Origin: Neoarius graeffei
Lineage: Eukaryota; Chordata; Actinopteri; Siluriformes; Ariidae
Length of the DNA: 64,000 nucleotides
NCBI RefSeq assembly: GCF_027579695.1
Contig: NC_083577.1
Span: forward strand, 92,416,516 to 92,480,515
Direction of reading: 5' to 3'
In this document: one piece after another, positions 6,576 to 61,776 of the stretch
How the letters are laid out: the number at the start of each line of letters is the position of its first letter
Numbering within the stretch: position 1 is the stretch's first letter
Made by a program: the position numbers and the translations under genes
The notes under the pieces: model-generated
What the model was told of the DNA's origin: nothing
What the model saw: the letters and a program-made list of their open reading frames with translations, nothing else
Databases searched by the model: none

Positions 6576-7099
6576 AATAGACACAAACGTGCATTCTCTC
6601 ATAGGTTTGTCCCTTTGGAGAATATCCTAGAGCTATAATTCTACGTAACTTACTGCACTGACTCGTTATTGTAATAAGACAAAATGGTTGATAGAGATCA
6701 TGTCTATGACTCCGCCTTAATCGTGTGCTGTGATTGGTCAACATTCATTCAGGTGCACTTTCTTTCTGTGGTGGAACAAATGGGCTGGATGCTTGGAAAG
6801 TTCTGGAAAATCATGAGTCGGGCGTGGCACTGGTAAATCATATAAATTTGGGCACACTGTAAAAAAAAATAGTTGAGAATACTTGAAATTTCAAGGCAAC
6901 CGTCTGCATTAAGAATTTTATGTTTTGCCAATGATGTGCCCATGATAATCCAAACTATGATAAAACTGTTATCTTTATTAAGAATTCTTAATTAAGTCAA
7001 TTTTCAATTCCTCATTCTGCCAACATAGATTTCTCTTTTTGCTGAACAGTGGCATTCACAGTAGTGCAAAAAGGCAATTGAGGTTATCACAATTTTTTT

Positions 7100-7242
7100 T
7101 TAGATTTTTTTGGTGCTTTTTTTAACCTCTATTTGGACAGTGGAGAGACAGGGAGACATCGGGAAATGACCTCGGGTCGGAACCGAACCCGGGTCCCCGG
7201 ATTTATGGTATGGCGCCTTATCTACCTGAGCCACGACGCCCC
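7100..7242 (-). repeat. tRNA-derived SINE in the left palindrome arm
   Basis: On the minus strand it begins GGGGCGTCGTGGCTCAGGTA (A-box TGGCTCAGGTAG) and contains the B-box-like GGTTCGGTTCCGACC, then a short body with GACAGGGAGACATCGGG. It belongs to a different SINE family from the Mermaid-like copies. Confidence 0.65.
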
Positions 7243-7349
7243 TGAGGTTATCGCCATTTATGATTAAACTATACATGCCTTTTTTCATTGTTCTACACAA
7301 TTACAAAACTTCAATATTGAAATAAAGTTTTTAAAACCCATGTCATGGG

Positions 7350-7495
7350 TATGGCGTTGTGGCTCAGGTGGATAAGGCGCCATACCATAAACCCGGGGAC
7401 CTGGGTTCGATTCCGACCCGAGGTCATTTCCCGTCCCTCTCTCCTGCTCATTTCCTGTCTCTACACTGTCCTATCCAAATAAAGGTAAAAAAAGC
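7350..7495 (+). repeat. tRNA-derived SINE in the right palindrome arm
   Basis: TGGCGTTGTGGCTCAGGTGG, then GATAAGGCGCCATACC and the B-box GGTTCGATTCC, mirror the copy at 7100-7242. The two differ at several sites (for example GTCGTGG against GTTGTGG), so the palindrome is not freshly formed. Confidence 0.65.
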
Positions 7496-7745
7496 CCCCC
7501 AAAAAAGTCTGATAACCTCAATTGCCTTTTTGCACTACTGTGAATGCCACTGTTCAGCAAAAAGAGAAATCTATGTTGGCAGAATGAGGAATTGAAAATT
7601 GACTTAATTAAGAATTCTTAATAAAGATAACAGTTTTATCATAGTTTGGATTATCATGGGCACATCGTTGGCAAAACATAAAATTCTTAGTGCAGACTGT
7701 TGCCTTGAAATTTCAAGTATTCTCAACTATTCTTTTTTTACAGTG

Positions 7746-42120: not shown

Positions 42121-42679
42121 TGTTAGGGTTTTGCTGGGATTCGAACCTGGATCGCTGGTGTGATAATCCAGCAAACCCCCACTAGGCCACCAGGGGGATG
42201 ACTTAAGTACAGAGGCGTGAGGCGAAAGTAGAGTATCAAAAAAACAGTTTATTTACACTATATACAATATTTACAATCCGATGGAAAAAAACAAAAAGAA
42301 AATCCAAAAGCTCAGAAGATAACAAAAATAAAAATATCCAAAGGTGCAAAGTCCAAAAACAAAAGGAAAGGCAAAAATGCTGAACGCTCAAAAGATCAAA
42401 AAGTACAAAGTCCAAAGAAAGCAAAAATATCAAAAACACAAGGGCAAAGGCAAGAAACGTGGGACAGAGGAAACTAGTACTAGACAACATAAAGACTCCG
42501 TGACAAGGGAACAAACAGAGGGGTATTTATACACAAACTAATTAAGGAACAGGGCGGGGCAGGAAACAGGCAATCAAGACACACACAAAACACAGTGGCG
42601 GCCTCTAGAGGCCAAAACAAACATGACAAGATAAACATAACAGCGGCCTCTAGAGGCCAAAACAGTCCCAGTCCTAACA
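42121..42679 (-). repeat. 3' LTR (left end) of the chromovirus
   Basis: 559 bp. TGTTAGGGTTTTGCTGGG at its outer (U5) end in + coordinates, CCAGTCCTAACA at the inner end. It contains the same TATA, tRNA-like and poly(A)-like signals as the other LTR, and differs from it by about a dozen substitutions and a 5-bp ACAGC-type indel. Confidence 0.93.
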
Positions 42680-42693
42680 GGACCCCCCCCCCA
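42680..42693 (-). other. Polypurine tract of the chromovirus
   Basis: Directly inside the 3' LTR the minus strand reads CTGGGGGGGGGGTCC just before the LTR. A G-run at this position is where plus-strand DNA synthesis is primed in LTR elements. Confidence 0.65.
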
Positions 42694-42718
42694 GGAGCGT
42701 CTCCTGACGTTCCCAGGG

Positions 42719-42892
42719 CGATTCGGATGGGCCGAATGGAAGTCCCGACAAAGTCCTTTATCTAAAATGTCCCGGGCGGGGACCCAACAGCATTCCTCAG
42801 GGCCGTAGCCCTCCCAGTCTACCAGATATTGAAGCCCGCCACGGACCCGGCGGGAGTCAAGCAGGCGATGAACAGTGAACACAGGGCACCCC
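42719..42892 (-). pseudogene. Chromodomain trace of the integrase C-terminus
   Basis: The minus strand gives [13 protein letters not shown], then [20 protein letters not shown] and [16 protein letters not shown], a chromodomain (YLVDWEGY core) as found at the end of chromovirus integrase, where it reads histone marks. It lies in another frame from the integrase core, only about 30 bp from it; the usual integrase tail between them is missing. It is therefore joined to the core by an internal deletion. Confidence 0.8.
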
Positions 42893-42925
42893 CGCATCCT
42901 CCTCCTGGTCCGGGAACAGAGGTGG

Positions 42926-45646
42926 CTAGAACCCAAATTGGCACTGGAACGGCGACAGCTTGGTAGCCGATGACTGCAGGGCGTTGTGGGCGTACTCTGC
43001 CCATGGCAGCAAGGTGCTCCACGAAGTTGGGTTATCCATAGCCAGTCCTCGCAGGGTGGTTTCCAGGTCCTGGTTGAGCCTCTCCGTCTGGCCATTGGAC
43101 TGTGGGTGGAACCCAGAGGAGAGGCTGGCAGTAGCTCCGATGAGCTTGCAAAATCCGTGCCACACTCGGGAGGAGACCTGGGGCCCCCGGTCAGAGACGA
43201 TATCCTGTGGGAGACCAAAGACTCGGAAGACGTAATTGAACATAAGTTTAGCAGTTTCAAGGGCAGAAGGGAGCTTGCACAGTGGTATAAAGCGGCAGGC
43301 CTTGGAGAATCTGTCCACTATGACCAAAATGACAGTGTTACCTTGAGACTCAGGGAGACCCATGATGAAGTCGACTGCCACGTGGGACCAGGGACGCCGG
43401 GGAATGGGCAGAGGATGCAGGAGGCCCTGGGGATGCTGTCGTGGGTTCTTACTTCTGGTACACACCTTGCAGGAAAGGACGAATGACCTCACTTCCTTCT
43501 CCATGCTTGGCCACCAGAAGTGTCTTCTCAGGAAGTCCAGGGTCCTTCGAGCTCCCGGGTGGGCGGTGAGAGGGGACGAGTGACCCCACTGGAGAACCTT
43601 GGCCTGGGCTTGATGTGGGACGTACAAGAGGCCCGGTGGCCCCGTCCCAGGACCGGGGTCCTGACGTTGGGCTCGTCAGACAGCCTCCTCAATACCCCAG
43701 CGGACAGGGGCCACAATCCGGGACACAGGGATAATAGGCCCAACTTCGCTCTCCCTGTTGGTGGGAGTGAACAGCCTGGAAAGTGCGTCAGGTTTGGTGT
43801 TTTTGGAACCGGGGCGGTATGATAGGGTAAAGTCAAACCTACTGAAAAACAAGGCCCACCTAGCCTGTCGTGGATTGAGTCTCTTTGCTTGCTGGAGGTA
43901 CTCCAGGTTCTTGTGGTCAGTCCAGACCAAAAATGGATGTTGCACTTCCTCCAGCCAGTGCCTCCACTCCTCAAGGGCCAGTTTAACTGCTAGCAGTTCT
44001 TGATCCCCCACGTCATACCGGGACTCCGCAGAACTCAGGCGGTGGGAGAAGTATGCGCAGGGGTGCAACCTTCCTTCCAAGCGTTGAGAGAGGACCGCGC
44101 CGACACCGCTGTCCGAGGCGTCCACCTCGACAATGAAGGGTTGCGAAGGGTCCGGGAGGACCAGAATGGGTGCCGTGCAGAAGCGGTGCTTGAGGTCTTT
44201 GAATGCCTTTTCCACCTGAGGAGACCAGACATACGATCCACCTGTCCCTTTGGTGAGGTCCGATATGGGTGCTGCTACAGAACTGAAGTTCTTGATAAAC
44301 TTGCGGTAGAAGTTAGCAAATCCTAAGAACCGCTGAACCTCTTTGACGGACTTGGGGGTGGGCCAGTCCCGGATGGCCAGGGTCTTGGCTGGATCCATCT
44401 GGAGTTGGCCCGTCCGTACAATAAAACCCAGAAAGGAGACCTAGGGAACATGAAATTCACATTTCTGGGCCTTAGCGAACAGATTGTTCTGTAGCAGCCT
44501 CTGGAGAACCTGGCAGAAATGATGGCGGTGCTCCTGCACGGTCTTGGAGAAGATTAGGATGTCGTCGAGGTAGACAAAAACGTACTGATTAATCATGTCC
44601 CTCAAGACGTCGTTGATTAGGGCCTGAAAAACAGCTGGTGCGTTGGTGAGTCCGAAGGGCATCACCTGGTACTCGTAGTGCCCAGACAGGGTGTTAAAGG
44701 CAGTCTTCCACTCGTCTCCCTGTCGGATACGGATGAGGTGGTATGCGTTCCGTAAGTCCAATTTGGTGAAGACAGTGGCGCCTTGGAGCAGATCAAACAC
44801 TGTGGACATCAGTGGAAGGGGATAGCGGTTGCGTACAGTGATCTTGTTCAGACCCCTGTAATCAATACACGGCCGGAGCCCCCCATCCTTCTTGCTGACA
44901 AAGAAGAAGCCGGCACCAGCGGGTGAGGTGGAGGGTCGAATGAACCCAGAGGCCAAGGCGTCCTTGATGTACTCCTCCATGGCCTTGCATTCTGGCTGAG
45001 AGAGGGAAAACAGTCTGCCACGAGGAGGGGTAGTCCCAGGGAGCAAGTCGATGGCACAGTCGTAGGCACAGTGCGGAGGAAGAACAGCGGCCCTGCTCTT
45101 GCTGAAAACTTCCTTGAGATCCCAGTACTCTGTGGGAACTTGAGACAACTCGGTGAGATCAGGAGGCTCGGCAGGAGACACAGGAGAGCTAGAGAGCAGA
45201 CATGAGGCATAGCAAGCAGGACCCCACTCCACAACCTGGCTAGTGACCCAGTCTATACGAGGGTTGTGGCGGGTAAGCCAAGGAAGACCTAGAATAACTG
45301 GGAACTCTGGTGAAGGAATAAGGTGCAGGGATATTTCTTCCTTGTGACCTTGAAACTGGAGGAAGACTGGAGAAGTTACTTGGGTGACTCTTCTGTCACC
45401 CAAGGCTTGGCCATCCAGGGCAGACACGGACAGTGGGACTTCAAGAGGTGCAGTCAGGACATTGATACTTTGGGCGAAGTTGACATCCATAAAGTTTCCA
45501 GCCGCCCCGGAGTCTAACAAGGCCTGACAAGAGTGGACGGACTCACCCCAGGAGATGGAGACCGGGATGTAGACTCCTTGGCCAGGGAGTTCAGGAGAGA
45601 GGGTAGGCCCCGTCACAACCCTCCCTCGGCTGGACGGGGTGGTCCT
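42926..45646 (-). pseudogene. Chromovirus Pol: protease, RT, RNase H, integrase core
   Basis: One frame, minus strand, -1 relative to Gag. Protease is near 45520 ([13 protein letters not shown]). RT has [24 protein letters not shown] and the catalytic [10 protein letters not shown] at about 44590-44550. RNase H starts near 44130 ([16 protein letters not shown]). The integrase has a zinc-binding CKVC at about 43540, then [17 protein letters not shown] and [13 protein letters not shown]. Stops break the frame at TAG 44441-44443 (end of RT), TGA 43676-43678 (before integrase) and TAG 42926-42928. The domains and catalytic residues are otherwise preserved, so this is a recently decayed copy. Confidence 0.9.
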
Positions 45647-46620
45647 TTTCCCGAGAGCTCGGGACATGATGCTCGGAAATGGCCAGGCTTGCCACAGTAG
45701 ATGCAGCACTTGTCCCTCCTTCTGCGCCCTCTCTCAGCTGTGGAGAGACGAGTACGTCCAACTTGCATGGGCTCTGGACAGTCACTGGAGGAGGTAGACG
45801 GGCTCCAGGTCGAGGCAGTGAGGCCGGGGAAGCTCAGGACTCGGCGGCGCTCTCTAATCCTGTTGTCAAGACGAGTAGAATGTGAGATCAGAGTTTCGAG
45901 GTCACTTGGGCATCTGATAGAGGCCAGGCCATCTTTGATGGGGTCAGACAAACCATGGTGAAAGGCTGAAACCAGGGCTGTTTCGTTCCATCCGCTGACT
46001 GCTGCGAGCGTCCGGAACTCGATGGCGTAGTCCGCGACATTTACTTCTTGCCGGATGGACATGAGCTTTCTGGCTGCGTCTTTACTGATGTCAGCTTGAT
46101 TGAAGACACGAAGCATCTCCTCCGTAAACAGCTGGAAATCAGAGCACTTGGGTCCCTGTGTCTGCCAGATAGCTGTGGCCCAGGCTTGTGCCTTACCAGC
46201 TAACAAGGTTATCACAAAGGCAATCTTGCGGCGATCCATAGTGTAGGTGGTAGGCTGGAGCTCAAAGGTAAGTTGGCACTGGGTAAGGAACTCCCGGCAC
46301 TCACTGTGCTTGCCGTCATACCTCTGTGGTGCAGGAAGGCAGGGTTCGCGAGGTGAAGGAGGCAGCGTGGCCGGAGGCACTGGAGCGGATGGTAGAGCAG
46401 GAGCAGAATCAGGCGGAGGAGATGGGGGTAGAGAAGTCAGCTGTGCCAGGGTTTTCCCAATCTGCTGAAGCAGTACCTCGTGGCGAGTAAGGGTCTCACG
46501 TTGGCTTGCAAGAGTTCGTCCATGAGTGTCCATGGTAGCTCCGAAGCGTGTTAAAGCGGCCATAATTCCCTGAATATTAGCTGGGTAGACAGTTGAAGAA
46601 GCCTCTGCTGAGTCAGTCAT
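45613..46620 (-). CDS. Chromovirus Gag, intact frame
   Basis: 335 codons from ATG 46620, only 13 nt inside the LTR, to TGA 45613-45615. It starts [17 protein letters not shown], has an N-terminal coiled-coil-like stretch with heptad-spaced Leu ([19 protein letters not shown]), a proline-rich linker, a capsid-like middle ([17 protein letters not shown], then [17 protein letters not shown]), and a CCHC zinc knuckle [14 protein letters not shown] near residue 310. In such elements Gag forms the particle and the knuckle binds RNA. No stop was seen, so this is the only intact frame of the element. The Pol frame overlaps its end. Confidence 0.9.
45646..45652 (-). promoter_or_regulatory. -1 frameshift heptamer between gag and pol
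   Basis: The + strand TTTTCCC reads G GGA AAA on the minus strand, in the Gag frame (codons ..TCG GGA AAA). It is placed before the Gag stop and at the entry of the Pol frame, which lies in -1. X XXY YYZ sites of this type drive -1 frameshifting in retroelements; the Sushi-derived PEG10 uses G GGA AAC. Confidence 0.8.
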
Positions 46621-46621
46621 G

Positions 46622-46632
46622 ACAGAGTCTTT
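46622..46632 (-). other. Predicted self-primer binding site
   Basis: One or two bases inside the 5' LTR the minus strand reads AAAGACTCTGT. It is complementary over 11 positions (one G-U) to ACGGAGTCTTT at 47018-47008, the predicted RNA 5' end. No tRNA-type TGG primer site is present here. Tf1 uses an 11-nt self-primer in this position. Confidence 0.65.
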
Positions 46633-46633
46633 C

Positions 46634-47196
46634 TGTTAGGGTTTTGCTGGGATTCGAACCTGGATCGCTGGTGTGATAATCCAGCAAACCCCCACTAGGC
46701 AACCAGGGGGATGACTCAAGTGCAGAGGCGTGAGGCGAAAGTAGAGTATCAAAAAACAGTTTATTTACACTATATAAAATATTTACAATCTGATGGAAAA
46801 AAACAAAAAGAAAATCCAAAAGCTCAGAAGATAACAAAAATAAAAATATCCAAAGGTGCAAAGTCCAAAAACAAAATGAAAGGCAAAAATGCTGAATGCT
46901 CAAAAGATCAAAAAGTACAAAGTCCAAAGAAAGCAAAAATACCAAAAACACAAGGGCAAAGGCAAGAAACGTGGGACAGAGGAAACTAGCACTAGACAAC
47001 ACAGCATAAAGACTCCGTGACAAGGGAACAAACAGAGGGGTATTTATACACAAACTAATTAAGGAACAGGGCGGGGCAGGAAACAGGCAACCAAGACACA
47101 CACAAAACACAGTGGCAGCCTCTAGAGGCCAAAACAAACATGACAAGATAAACATAACAGCAGCCTCTAGAGGCCAAAACAGTCCCAGTCCTAACA
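46634..47196 (-). repeat. 5' LTR (right end) of the chromovirus
   Basis: 563 bp. TATA box TATAAATA at 47048-47041 (minus strand). Predicted RNA start near 47018. AATAAA-like poly(A) signal near 46762. A tRNA-like A-box (TTGCCTAGTGG, 46702-46692) and B-box (GGTTCGAATCC, 46660-46650) lie near the inner end. Confidence 0.93.
47041..47048 (-). promoter_or_regulatory. TATA box of the chromovirus LTR
   Basis: TATAAATA on the minus strand, 30 nt upstream of the ACGGAGTC start proposed for the genomic RNA. The same box is in the other LTR near 42525-42532. Confidence 0.7.
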
Positions 47197-48549
47197 ATAT
47201 CGACTTGAACACTGGGTTGGGTTGACTGGTAAAGTTATCAATTGGTTAAAATCATACTTAAAAGATAGAAGCTTCTTTGTTACCATGGGAAATTGTACCT
47301 CAACATCAATGTCCTTGACCTGTGGTGTCCCCCAGGGGTCGATCCTTGGACCATTACTATTCAACCTTTATATGCTCCCACTTAAACAAATTATCAAGAA
47401 CAACTCAATTTTGTATCACTGCTATGCAGATGACACCCAAATTTATTTTGCTCTATCACCTAATGATTATGCCCCCCTTGAATGTCTCTACCAGTGTATC
47501 GAACAAATCAACAACTGGATGTCACAAAATTTTCTCCAGCTGAACACAGATAAAACAGAAGTAATTCTATTTGGGAAAAAAGATGAAAGACTCAGGATTA
47601 CCACTATTCTTGACACAAAGGGGATTAAAACAAAAGATATGGTTAAAAATCTTGGTGTTTTCATTGACAGCGAGCTAAACTTCGACAGTCACATGAAAGC
47701 AATCACTAAATCGTCATTTTATCACCTAAAAAACATTTCCAAACTAAGAGGACTTATGTCAAAAAATGATCTGGAAAAACTTATACATGCCTTCATCTCA
47801 AGTAGGGTTGATTACTGCAATGGCCTTTTCACAGGCCTGCCAAAAAAGACCATCAAACGACTTCAGCTGGTTCAAAATGCAGCAGCGAGGGTTCTCACAC
47901 GAACAAAAAGAACAGAGCACATTACTCCAATTCTAAGGTCCCTTCACTGGCTTCCAGTAAGCTACAGAATTGACTTTAAAGCATTGCTGCTGGTGTACAA
48001 ATCTCTAAATGGTACAGGGCCCAATTACCTCTCTGATATGTTGCAGCGGCCTAACCCAATCAGATCTACCAGATCGCAGCAGCAAAATTGACTGGTAAAA
48101 CCTGTTGTTAAAACAAAGTGTGGCGAAGCAGCTTTTAGCTACTATGCAGTACAGCTATGGAACCAACTGCCAGAGGACATTAAAAATGCTCCTGCTGTTG
48201 GCAGCTTCAAATCTAGACTAAAGACCAAGCTGTTCTCAGATGCTTTCTGCTAACTGATAAATATCGTCATCTTTACATGTTTTAAACTTTACTTAACTTT
48301 TACAGTCTCTGCATGTTTTAAACTTTACTTAACTTTTATTCTATTTTATTCTGCTGTTTTTTAACTGAATTTTTACTTCATTTTATTTCTACTATTGTTT
48401 AATCCTTATATTATTTTTCTCTCTTCTTCCCCCTTTATTTTATGTAATTTTATTTTCTATTGTTTACTGTTTTGCTTTTACCTCTGTAAAGCACATTGAA
48501 CTGCCACTGGGTATGAAATGTGCTATATAAATAAACTTGCCTTGCCTTG
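47197..48549 (+). pseudogene. L2-like LINE, part after the LTR element
   Basis: Continues 41585-42120: GKVINWLKSYLKDRSFF, LTCGVPQGSILGPLLFNLYM, the intact box [46 protein letters not shown] and LHWLPVSYRIDFKALL. A TGA at 48089-48091 cuts the frame, then FSYYAVQLWNQLPEDIK and a stop after FKSRLKTKLFSDAFC (about 48250) complete the usual end. The untranslated region ends in ATGTGCTATATAAATAAAC then TTGCCTTGCCTTG, a tail typical of L2 LINEs. Confidence 0.88.
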
Positions 48550-48831: not shown

Positions 48832-48905
48832 ATGCATTATTGTTGTGCAGTGAACCGTAACAACAGGACCAGTTCAGGAAGAAGTTTTTACCTTTTTCCG
48901 AAAAA
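48832..48905 (+). pseudogene. THAP-like N-terminus feeding into a minisatellite
   Basis: ATG 48832 gives MHYCCAVNRNNRTSSGRSF, then YLFPKKGKRWSEWVG. The pattern (Cys-Cys, N-x-R, GRSFYxFP, K-R-x-x-E-W) follows THAP-domain starts, except that the second zinc Cys appears replaced (V-N-R). The last coding part is the founder-like unit of the 41-bp array at 48893-50034. Confidence 0.5.
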
Positions 48906-50034
48906 GGGGAAGAGGTGGAGCGAGTGGGTTGGCTTTTTCCGAAAAAGGAGAAGAGGTGGAGCAAGTAGGTTGGCTTTTTCCAAAAAAGGAGAAGAGGCGG
49001 AGCGAGTGGGTTGGCTTTTTCCAAAAAAGAAGAGGCGGAGCGAGTGGGTTGGCTTTTTCCGAAAAAGGAGAAGAGGCGGAGCGAGTGGGTTGGCTTTTTC
49101 CGAAAAAGGAGAAGAGGCAGAGCGAGTGGGTTGGCTTTGTCCAAAAAAGGAGAAGAGGCGGAGGGAGTGGGTTGGCTTTTTCCGAAAAAGGAGAAGAGGT
49201 GGAGCGAGTGGGTTGGCTTTTTCCAAAAAAGGAGAAGAGGCGGAGCGAGTGGGTTGGCTTTTTCCGAAAAAGGAGAAGAGGCGGAGCGAGTGGGTTGGCT
49301 TTTTCCGAAAAAGGAGAAGAGGCAGAGCGAGTGGGTTGGCTTTGTCCGAAAAAGGAGAAGAGGCGGAGCGAGTGGGTTGGCTTTTTCCGAAAAAGGAGAA
49401 GAGGCGGAGCGAGTGGGTTGGCTTTTTCTGAAAAAGGAGAAGAGGCGGAGTGAGTGGATTGGCTTTTTCCAAAAAAGGAGAAGAGGTGGAGTGAGTGGGT
49501 TGGCTTTTTCCAAAAAAGGAGAAGAGGTGGAGTGAGTGGGTTGGCTTTTTCCAAAAAAGAAGAGGCTGAGCGAGTGGGTTGGCTTTTTCCGAAAAAGGAG
49601 AAGAGGCGGAGCGAGTGGGTCGGCTTTTTCTGAAAAAGGAGAAGAGGCGGAGCGAGTGGGTTGACTTTTTCCAAAAAAGGAGAAGAGGCTGAGCAAGTGT
49701 GTTGGCTTTTTCCAAAAAAGGAGAAGAGGCGGAGCGAGAGGGTTGGCTTTTTCCCAAAAAGGAGAAGAGGCTGAGCAAGTGCGTTGGCTTTTTCCAAAAA
49801 AGGAGAAGAGGTGGAGCAAGTGGGTTGGCTTTTTCTGAAAAAGGAGAAGAGGCGGAGTGAGTGGGTTGGCTTTTTCCAAAGAAGGAGAAGAGGTGGAGTG
49901 AGTGCGTTGGCTTTTTCCAAAAAAGGAGAAGAGGTGGAGCGAGTGCGTTGGCTTTTTCCAAAAAAGGAGAAGAGGCGGAGCGAATGGGTTGGCTTTTTCC
50001 GAAAAAGGAGAAGAGGCGGAGTGAGTGGATTGTG
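48893..50034. repeat. 41-bp minisatellite, about 28 units
   Basis: The unit is GTTGGCTTTTTCCGAAAAAG followed by GAGAAGAGGCGGAGCGAGTGG, with variants (CCGAAAAAGG or CCAAAAAAGG, GGCGG or GGTGG) and two or more shorter units of 38 bp. As 41 is not a multiple of three, each frame repeats every 123 bp. This, with the absence of stops, leaves several frames of 170-390 codons open on both strands. I do not regard these as proteins. Confidence 0.95.
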
Positions 50035-59363: not shown

Positions 59364-61776
59364 TGCCTGCGGCCATATTATCTGCCAAGGGAGTTCAGTC
59401 ACGTGATCACCATCTGTGTTTACATCCCTCCGAAGGCAGATGCAGCTGCTGCATGTGAGAGGATTCACTCTGTCACAGCAAGGCTGCAGACACAGCACCC
59501 TGAGGCATTTATCATCATTTCTGGGGACTTTAATCACACTACTTTGGACTCTACTTTGGCTGCTTTTTACCAGGCTGTGGATTGTCCAACAAGGAACAAC
59601 AGGACAATTGACTTGCTGTATGCTAATGTGAGGGATGCATACAGAGTCACACCCCTCCCCCCACTAGGGAAGTCTGACCACAACCTGGTTCGTCTACAGC
59701 CGAAGTACACCCCCCGGTCCAAAGGCAGCCTGCAACAACTAGCTCCATCAGGAGATGGTCCCCTGAAATGGAAGATGCCCTCAGAGACTGCTATGACATC
59801 ACGGACTGGGATGTGCTGCTTGGCCCACACTGTGAGGACATAGAGGGGCTGACACACTGTCTGACAGATTACCTCAACTTCTGTGCAGACGTGGTCTCCC
59901 CCGCTAAGACTGTACGGTGTTACCCTAATAACAAGCCATGGGTAACACAGGAAGTCAAAACTGTCTTCAACAGGAAGAAGACCGCCTTCAGGAGCAGGGG
60001 TAGGGAGGCGATGAAAGCATCACAGCAGGAGGTGAAACGCTGCATGAGGGAAGCTAAGGACAGCTACAGGAGAAAGGTGGAGCAGCAGCTGAAGGAGAAC
60101 AGCATGAGGGAGGTCTGGGAAGGTGTGAAAACCATCACAGGCCACAATACAAAGACCAGAGTCGTTGAGGGGACAGTGGAGAGGGCGAATGAGTTGAATG
60201 ACTTCTTCAATCGGTTCAACCAGCCCATGTCCTCCCCACCCTCTCCCTCACTGCAGCCATCTCTCCTTCTTCCCTCAACACACCTCCCCCCAGTCATCAT
60301 AGCAGCCCCCTCCTCCCCCACCTCAACACAGACTCCTCTATGCATTACTGCAGACCAGGTCAGAGGTCAGCTGAGGAAGCTTCATCCCAGGAAAGCAGGA
60401 GGCCTGGACAAGGTGTGTCCATGACTATTGAAGACCTGCGCTGCTGAACTGGGTGAACCACTCCAACGCATCTTCAACCTTAGCCTGCAGCTGGGGAGAG
60501 TGCCAACCCTCTGGAAGACATCATGTATCGTTCCAGTTCCCAAAAAGAATCGGCCCAGCGAGCTGAACGACTTCCGACCGGTGGCGCTCACTTCACATCT
60601 GATGAAGACACTGAGGAGGCTCTTCCTCAGCCTCCTCAGACCCCAGGTACAACATGCCCAGGACTGTCTGCAGTTTGCGTACCGGGCAGGCGTTGGTGTG
60701 GAAGACGCCATCCTCTACCTGCTACACCAAGCCCACTTGCATCTGGATAAGGGAAATGGCACAGTGAGGATCCTCTTCTTGGACTTCTCAAGTGCCTTCA
60801 ACACCATCCATCCCCTACTGCTTCAGGACACACTGAACAGGATGCGAGTGGACCCCTGCCTGGTCACCTGGATCTCCAGCTACCTCACTGACAGGCCGCA
60901 GTACGTCAGGCTGAAGGACATCACGTCTGACCCTGTAATTAGCAGCACCGGAGCACCCCAGGGCATGGTGCTGGCCCCTCTTCTCTTCACCCTGTACACC
61001 GCGGACTTCTGCTACAACTCGGAGCTGTGTCACATTCAGAAGTTTGCCAATGATACAGCCATCGTTGGGTGTATCAGTTATGACAGAGAGGAGGAGTATA
61101 GGAGCCTGGTGAGGGACTTTGCTGTGCGGTGCAACAGGAACCATCTGCAGCTCAACACCTTGAAGACCAAGGAGCTGGTCATTGACTTTGGGAGGTTCAG
61201 ACCAGTTCTGATCGAGGGAGTCGAGGTGGAGGCTGTGGATTCCTACAAGTACCTCGGGCTGTGGCTGGACAGCAAGCTGGACTGGACTTGTAACACCAAG
61301 CACTTGTACAGGAAGGGACAGAGCAGTCTATACTTCCTGAGGAGGCTGCGATCCTTTAACATCTGCAGGAAACTCCTGTGGATGTTCTATCAGTCTGTGG
61401 TTGCCAGTGTCCTGTTTTACACCGTAGTGTGCTGGGGGGGGGCAGCACATCCAAGAAGGACACATCCAGGCTGGACAAACTGATCAGGCGGGCCGGCTCT
61501 GTGGTCGGCATGAAGCTGGACTCTCTGGTGACGGTGGCAGAGAAGAGGTCTATGGTCAAACTATTGAACATCATGGACGATGCCAGTCACCCTCTGCACA
61601 CCGTCATCAGCACCCAGAGGAGCCTGTTCAGTGACAGAATGCTCCTTCCCAAGTGCAGGACGAACAGACTCAAAAACTCCTTTGTCCCTCACGCCATCAG
61701 ACTGTACAACTCCTCTCTGGGGGGGAGGAGGGGGAACAGGAGGACAGAGGACGGGAAGGACAGGGCTTTCCACTAA
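58868..61776 (+). pseudogene. Rex1/CR1-like LINE: endonuclease and reverse transcriptase
   Basis: ATG 58868 (MGRAGIRHPIPAELRRK) leads to the endonuclease: MGNVNSLPNKVDELSAL, SLFIFTETWLTHLVPDANVD, then GGGLIIYVNN. A (TA)n expansion near 59310-59353 breaks the frame, and the domain goes on with YIPPKADAAAACERI, IIISGDFNHTT and GKSDHNLV. A second shift precedes the linker (59768-60424, TGA at 60422). RT from 60428: LNDFRPVALTSHLMK, LFLDFSSAFNTIHPLL, STGAPQGMVLAPLLFTLY, then FANDTAIVG where FADD is expected, and LYFLRRLRSFN. A G-run near 61434 shifts the frame again to LIRRAGSVVGMKLDSL and VPHAIRLYNSSL. It is nearly full length but dead. Confidence 0.88.
59310..59353. repeat. (TA)n microsatellite in the LINE endonuclease
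   Basis: About twenty-two TA units followed by T9, replacing a short part of the endonuclease coding sequence between ELLAV and the next conserved block. Confidence 0.95.

Follow-up and report, generated by a model that had tools for sequence, protein, structure and literature searches.

How would an LTR retrotransposon that offers no TGG site to a tRNA primer start its reverse transcription? This question is raised by an element on the minus strand of the 64-kb stretch of Neoarius graeffei DNA that was analysed as a whole (the window; Table 1). The element contains gag, protease, reverse transcriptase (RT), RNase H and integrase in Ty3/gypsy order together with a chromodomain, distributed over five open stretches, and it is therefore a Ty3/gypsy chromovirus. 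It is flanked on both sides by the 5-bp target site duplication (TSD) GATAT (47201-47197 and 42120-42116), and a run of G ahead of the 3' LTR looks like a polypurine tract. Since pol is spread over several frames, the window copy looks broken. The best solved-structure matches of the RT were 4ol8, which we take to be the Ty3 RT, and 7q5b (Ty3), and that of the integrase was 7q5b. The organism-named entries among the 120 gag and 120 RT homologues listed came from fish or frogs, many entries being nameless. In an RT tree, whose set included neither Tf1 nor sushi-ichi, the element was placed among database homologues, several of them named fish; the labelled self-primed loci did not form one clade in this tree, most rows of which come without the leader DNA needed to judge them. 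No RT or gag relatives and no U5 DNA pattern were found in viral_contigs, and no integrase relatives were found in genome_contigs. As for the surroundings, an RT fragment (RVT_1) at 47222-48091 adjoins the element; it is perhaps a LINE piece, into which the element may have inserted. The window also holds a tandem array at 48892-50032 (41-bp unit, 28 copies, 92% matches) and a second RT ORF with an ALKBH8_N domain at 60428-61483.

Table 1. Features of the element and of its predicted self-priming apparatus in the Neoarius graeffei window
Feature	Position	Strand	Basis
LTR retrotransposon, whole	47196-42121	minus	Neoarius graeffei 64-kb window
5' LTR, TGTTAGG...CCCTAACA	46634..47196	minus	96.8% identical to 3' LTR; TSD adjoining
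TATA box TATAAATA	47041..47048	minus	read from sequence
Predicted self-primer ACGGAGTCTTT, RNA nucleotides 1-11	47008..47018	minus	read from sequence; chance test
AATAAA polyadenylation signal in LTR	46760..46765	minus	match to motif
U5 arm of U5-gag duplex (7 + 3-nt bulge + 7)	46712..46728	minus	fold, pattern search, covariation, energy
A-box-like TTGCCTAGTGGG (TGGCCTAGTGGG in 3' LTR)	46691..46702	minus	likeness to consensus; U5 alignment
Predicted U5 hairpin, U5-IR-like	46643..46688; arms 46688-46681, 46650-46643	minus	fold prediction
Box B consensus GGTTCGAATCC	46650..46660	minus	match to consensus; window scan, U5 alignment
PBS AAAGACTCTGT	46622..46632	minus	read from sequence; family comparison
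gag arm of U5-gag duplex, end of codon 2 to start of codon 7	46602..46615	minus	fold, pattern search, covariation
gag	45613..46620	minus	Pfam Retrotrans_gag, DUF4939, Ty3_capsid
Protease + RT	44441..45709	minus	Pfam RVP_2, RVT_1
RNase H	43676..44398	minus	Pfam RT_RNaseH
Integrase	42926..43627	minus	Pfam Integrase_H2C2, rve
Chromodomain end of integrase	42574..43260	minus	Pfam Chromo 3.4e-11
3' LTR, TATA + primer as in 5' LTR	42121..42679	minus	TSD adjoining

An earlier note on this DNA had claimed that a TATA box is followed 30 nt later by an 11-mer and that a second 11-mer, the primer-binding site (PBS), lies just inside the LTR. On direct reading, the coordinates of all three parts and the spacing, counted from the first T to the first A, were exact to the base. 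The LTR ends in CCCTAACA at 46634, a single G follows, and then comes the PBS (46632-46622), with the gag start codon (46620-46618) one base beyond it. The two 11-mers, which had been said to pair throughout with one G-U, do pair at 11 of 11 positions, the G·U being 47016-46624. The supposed lack of a tRNA-complementary site was likewise confirmed, in that TGG, and with it a tRNA PBS of that kind, is absent from the first 30 bases past the LTR. When lengths of 8-15 with at most one G·U were tried, the primer-PBS match was the longest complementarity between the LTR and the next 73 bases. Judging from the distance to the TATA box and from the other groups described below, we infer that the RNA would start at A47018. 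Folding of 46740-46600 favours a small PBS hairpin, and nested folding gave primer-PBS pairing a probability of 0, as would be expected of a pseudoknot.

The match was compared within the window's own family (F1) in 41 loci, of which 11 were reached through gag and 30 were taken from the 40 best among 3,298 candidates for a query spanning primer and PBS; since the query spans both, this sample favours intact copies. A PBS was readable in 32 of these loci, and 30 of them also had a primer where one was expected, recognised by its likeness to the window primer. Pairing at 11/11 was observed in 24 of the 30 copies when G·U was counted (the window's own copy, L019, is included in both numbers) and in 14 by Watson-Crick pairs alone; the copies not pairing at all 11 positions were L037, L041, L047, L065, L066 and L096. 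The PBS read AAAGACTCCGT in 17 of the 32 loci, AAAGACTCTGT in 9 (including L019), AAAGACTCCAT in 4 and otherwise in 2. Since the CpG of the F1 PBS is often altered, the G·U of the window copy is most simply explained by CpG decay, and T46624 is probably a decayed CpG. One F1 copy (L021) is altered on both sides (ATGGAG / CTCCAT), which could represent two separate CpG decays. Because two CpG sites can decay separately, covariation inside F1 was set aside as strong evidence.

Covariation of the two 11-mers across genomic relatives had been named as a test that could refute self-priming, and it was run on the host assembly (2.34 Gb in 38 contigs). Groups beyond F1 were reached via gag queries, the seven groups sampled (F1-F7) were drawn by gag and leader likeness, and self-primer pairs were present in all seven: the primers differ between groups, and each has its complementary PBS next to the end of the LTR. 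In F2 (primer/PBS, GCTGAGTTCT / AGAACTCAGC), 18 of 21 loci had a TATA-like box and at least 10 nt paired with at most one non-Watson-Crick position; of the other three, L050 and L059 lack a pair of this kind, and the scan misread L074. F3 (ACTGAGTCTTT / AAAGACTCAGT) and F6 (GCTCAGTCATG / CATGACTGAGC) are represented by one locus each (L076 and L085), both pairing at all 11 positions, and in F6 the gag ATG lies inside the PBS. In F4 (CTCTGATCGC / GCGATCAGAG), 6 of 9 loci pair at 10/10, L081 and L082 pair at 9, and L091 at 8 of 10. The last pair of F4 is changed from C-G to U-A on both sides in L080 and L093, and neither base is in a CpG. All 10 positions pair in both loci of F5 (GCCAGAACGT / ACGTTCTGGC) and in all five loci of F7 (GCCAGACTGT / ACAGTCTGGC), two of the latter with G·U. 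In F1, F2, F3, F5 and F6, the distance to an upstream TATA-like box is 30-31 nt; in place of such a box, F4 and F7 show a TTAAG-like sequence 27-28 nt upstream. At L095, no LTR was seen beside gag. A separate feature of F5 (L084, oriented 732-744 with 1165-1177; L099) is a 13-base stretch between TATA and primer that complements downstream gag codons; it would fall outside the RNA if transcription begins at the primer.

More distant loci came from MAG contigs, and all 18 of these are probably contaminants. Such a pair was found in five of them (L001, L002, L003, L005 and L007). Nothing credible was found in the other 13, several of which are without a 5' end: L006 has decayed, the matches in L010, L011 and L016 lie away from an LTR end, and the rest have none; a candidate 9-bp match was seen by eye in L008/L009, ca. 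44 nt past TATA. In L001 (1-50), L002 (660-715) and L003 (50-100), an inverted copy of the primer immediately precedes the predicted start of the RNA, and primer, PBS and this third copy differ together between the three loci. In a selection of nine groups, made up of three MAG loci and six host groups, pairing extends to 96 of 99 positions. When primer and PBS partners were swapped, a mean of 4.67 of 11 positions paired (maximum, 9), and none of the 362,879 other assignments reached 96 paired positions; the best alternative was as high as 93/99 because the F5 and F7 primers are similar. In 14 typed primer-PBS rows, 97.4% of the cells pair as compared to 49.4% in shuffles. Since most pairs were found via complementarity, these pairing counts are partly built in and overstate the agreement, and the independent support for the predicted pairing is that the match recurs at the right position each time. 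Geometry and between-group covariation together support the inference of the earlier note that this fish element self-primes.

A second duplex appears to connect U5 with the beginning of gag. The stretch 46740-46600 folds better than 200 of 200 shuffles (z -3.9, a value that belongs to the whole stretch and not to the U5 hairpin alone), and its outer stem pairs 46729-46712 of U5 with 46615-46601 in gag codons 2-7. Of 81 loci, a pattern search recovered both arms in 40; among the other 41 are 3' LTR pieces, the F2 loci and F6, and the pattern itself fixed some invariant letters. Covariation was evaluated in 15 distinct typed rows from F1, F3, F4, F5 and F7, with at least one further F1 variant, L041/L097, left out. 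In these rows, 94.3% of the cells pair as compared to 84.8% in shuffles, one of the end pairs is broken in 9 of the 15, and a one-base slide of the arms drops pairing to 38-42%. The covariation score was reached by 0 of 500 shuffles. Changes on both sides were observed in 18 cells (5.7 in shuffles); these changes come from F4, F5 and F7 rows (5-6 rows) and lie in letters outside the search pattern. The duplex energy was low in F1, F4, F5, F6 and F7 (z -2.0 to -3.0, 60 shuffles). The values for F2, for F3 and for all but one of five non-fish loci were not unusual, the exception being L001 (z -2.3), where the pairing is different. In wider windows, the mean energy was -30.3 as against -25.5 for swapped partners, and F1-F3 do not stand out. 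On the protein side, the motif [DENGPST][PSGTQVN]A[EDGN], which was chosen after viewing the sequences, occurs within the first nine residues of 66 of 115 gag homologues (those of the 120 listed with >250 aa and an M start) and in 1.3% of later windows. This N-terminal motif may be the coding side of the U5-gag stem.

It could be argued that U5 and gag pair merely because amino acids at the gag N-terminus are conserved and that no functional RNA stem exists. The gag arm is indeed coding, the motif recurs among gag homologues, part of the invariant letters was set by the search pattern, and two-sided changes affect 5 of 14 pairs, an unremarkable number that 66 of 500 shuffles equal. We nevertheless regard this explanation as unlikely, because the letters outside the pattern change together on both sides in F4, F5 and F7, and because U5 is non-coding, so that amino-acid constraint cannot account for its matching changes. 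A functional RNA stem within coding sequence, in turn, would account for the common first residues of otherwise diverged gag proteins. The primer-PBS and U5-gag duplexes cross and thus fit the Tf1-type pretzel as outlined in passages of PMC10085805; of the parts of such a pretzel, these two duplexes have support here from covariation, subject to the limits given above, and the U5 hairpin is predicted.

Based on the observed sequences, their positions and the covariation of the primer-PBS and U5-gag pairs, we consider it highly probable that the window contains a broken copy of a large self-primed chromovirus family of the Tf1/sushi kind, for which the start site, pseudoknot, cut and priming are proposed as described below. 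Pol II would start the RNA at A47018, and the first 11 nucleotides of this RNA would fold back onto the PBS, one base beyond the LTR end. The U5-gag duplex would frame the PBS, and a pseudoknotted 'pretzel' would be formed. By analogy with Tf1, cleavage by RNase H behind nucleotide 11 would free a 3' end that primes minus-strand DNA and is extended into U5. In LTR replication, the PBS of a new copy is copied from the primer; the PBS of the new copy would here be templated by the self-primer itself, and the two would therefore stay in step without selection.

Priming by an internal piece of a tRNA (a half-tRNA, as in some copia elements), with the match to the element's own 5' end being incidental, would also go with the absence of a TGG site, a feature of half-tRNA primers in passages of PMC6317226. 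This is very unlikely, however, since in each of seven groups the PBS, which differs between groups, matches the group's own R region at a near-constant distance from a TATA-like or TTAAG-like box, and since the chance of even one such match is ca. 7e-5 (when both segments were shuffled by mononucleotide, 14 of 200,000 shuffles did as well within a TATA distance of 26-36 and a spacer of 0-3). Chance complementarity of primer and PBS deserves next to no credence: although 11 nt is short, 64 kb gives many pairs and a scan for the TATA, primer, CA and PBS geometry yielded four overlapping matches in 529,694 plus-strand tests (each inside the same long palindrome, from 6841 on), the single site in 346,720 minus-strand tests is the element's own, few shuffles reproduced it, and the pairing is repeated in other groups with a between-group covariation that makes coincidence very unlikely.

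The U5 of the self-priming element additionally carries sequences resembling box A and box B, the tRNA-like Pol III boxes. The box B consensus has three matches in the window (0.05 expected), namely in U5, in its 3' LTR copy and at 7404, the last within a long imperfect palindrome at 6855-7745. In the 3' LTR, the A-box-like TGGCCTAGTGGG sits 42 bases upstream of box B, and the 5' LTR differs from it by one change. Conservation in 37 aligned F1 U5 rows was 98.6% for box A, 96.7% for box B, 93.4% between the boxes and 95.0% in the 40 bases upstream; these differences are small, L029 repeats the window 3' LTR, and some rows are the two LTRs of one element. F2 (L051 and L053) and F3 (L076) have different U5 sequences with GGTTCAATCCC at that place, and no such boxes were visible by eye in the U5 of F4-F7. 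A tRNA model scored 16.6 bits on the sibling L066, below the 29-bit cut-off, and the Rfam tRNA model gave no match in the window (E up to 5) or in the tested stretch of L076. A full tRNA gene in U5 was rejected, ARAGORN having found none in the window and none in 12 loci. Going by the boxes, tRNA descent of the U5 tail would be plausible.

A more far-reaching and doubtful proposal, which we offer tentatively, is that F1-F3 form an autonomous self-priming lineage with a tRNA-derived U5 segment, carrying boxes A and B, set against the PBS. If this were true, the segment could act in cis as a mimic of tRNA and fill the place in the priming complex that the tRNA primer has left empty, or it could serve TFIIIC/Pol III as a site within an LTR that Pol II drives. 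Given the U5-gag stem, conservation of the first gag codons would then owe more to RNA pairing than to the function of the protein. No report of boxes A and B in an autonomous self-primed element was found in a targeted search of open-licence papers. Separately, an antisense tRNA-like sequence was seen near the LTR start of self-primed elements on MAG contigs (L003, ca. 4980; L006, ca. 4908; L007, ca. 5180). Box B is present with one mismatch in this antisense stretch of L003 and L006 and is weaker, by eye, in L007; the Rfam tRNA model gave no match in the tested stretches of L003 and L007.

Experiments have demonstrated self-priming in Tf1 of fission yeast, and for vertebrates it is a proposal. 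Butler (2001) reportedly described vertebrate Tf1/sushi elements, including sushi-ichi, and proposed that they self-prime, and Levin is said to have found that Tf1 RNA starts at the primer, that RNase H cuts after nucleotide 11 and that the primer is extended; both are known to us from citing papers. In passages of PMC10085805 and PMC4600332, Tf1 and its kin are described as having an RNA 5' end complementary to a PBS just past an LTR ending in CA, a three-duplex pretzel structure and a chromodomain, and self-priming of vertebrate Tf1/sushi elements is cited there, and in a passage of PMC6317226, as an earlier proposal. The window element has in common with Tf1, Tf2, Tj1, Tosmo1-3 and Tcry1 the PBS complementary to its predicted RNA 5' end, the LTR ending in CA and the chromodomain. 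It differs from them in its letters, in having a duplex arm in the first gag codons and in the tRNA-like boxes in the U5 of F1-F3. With the vertebrate Tf1/sushi elements (sushi-ichi), to which it is likened by description, it shares the vertebrate host, the chromovirus type and the proposed self-priming; compared to sushi-ichi, it represents one more family, together with six other groups in the same genome.

In the Tcn1 clade of non-seed plants and fungi, self-priming is predicted for the majority of plant members according to passages of PMC6317226, and neither tRNA priming nor self-priming was found for one Tcn1 element described in part of PMC2864245. Some of L001-L007 may, at a guess, belong to this clade. 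Helenus and Ajax (TRIMp3) are presented in passages of PMC10886601 (Kojima 2024) as non-autonomous, tRNA-primed elements with tRNA-like or 5S-like Pol III boxes in their LTRs. The sequences resembling boxes A and B in the U5 of F1-F3 may correspond to these Pol III boxes. Unlike Helenus/TRIMp3, however, the window element is not a short non-autonomous one and has coding domains, self-priming parts and no TGG site. A single genome with at least seven groups of differing, co-varying primer/PBS pairs makes the vertebrate self-priming proposal directly testable by RNA 5'-end mapping. Seen against these systems, the self-priming core is known in kind and was already proposed for the Tf1/sushi group, and what would surprise a specialist is a stem that extends into coding sequence and a U5 tail that resembles a tRNA.
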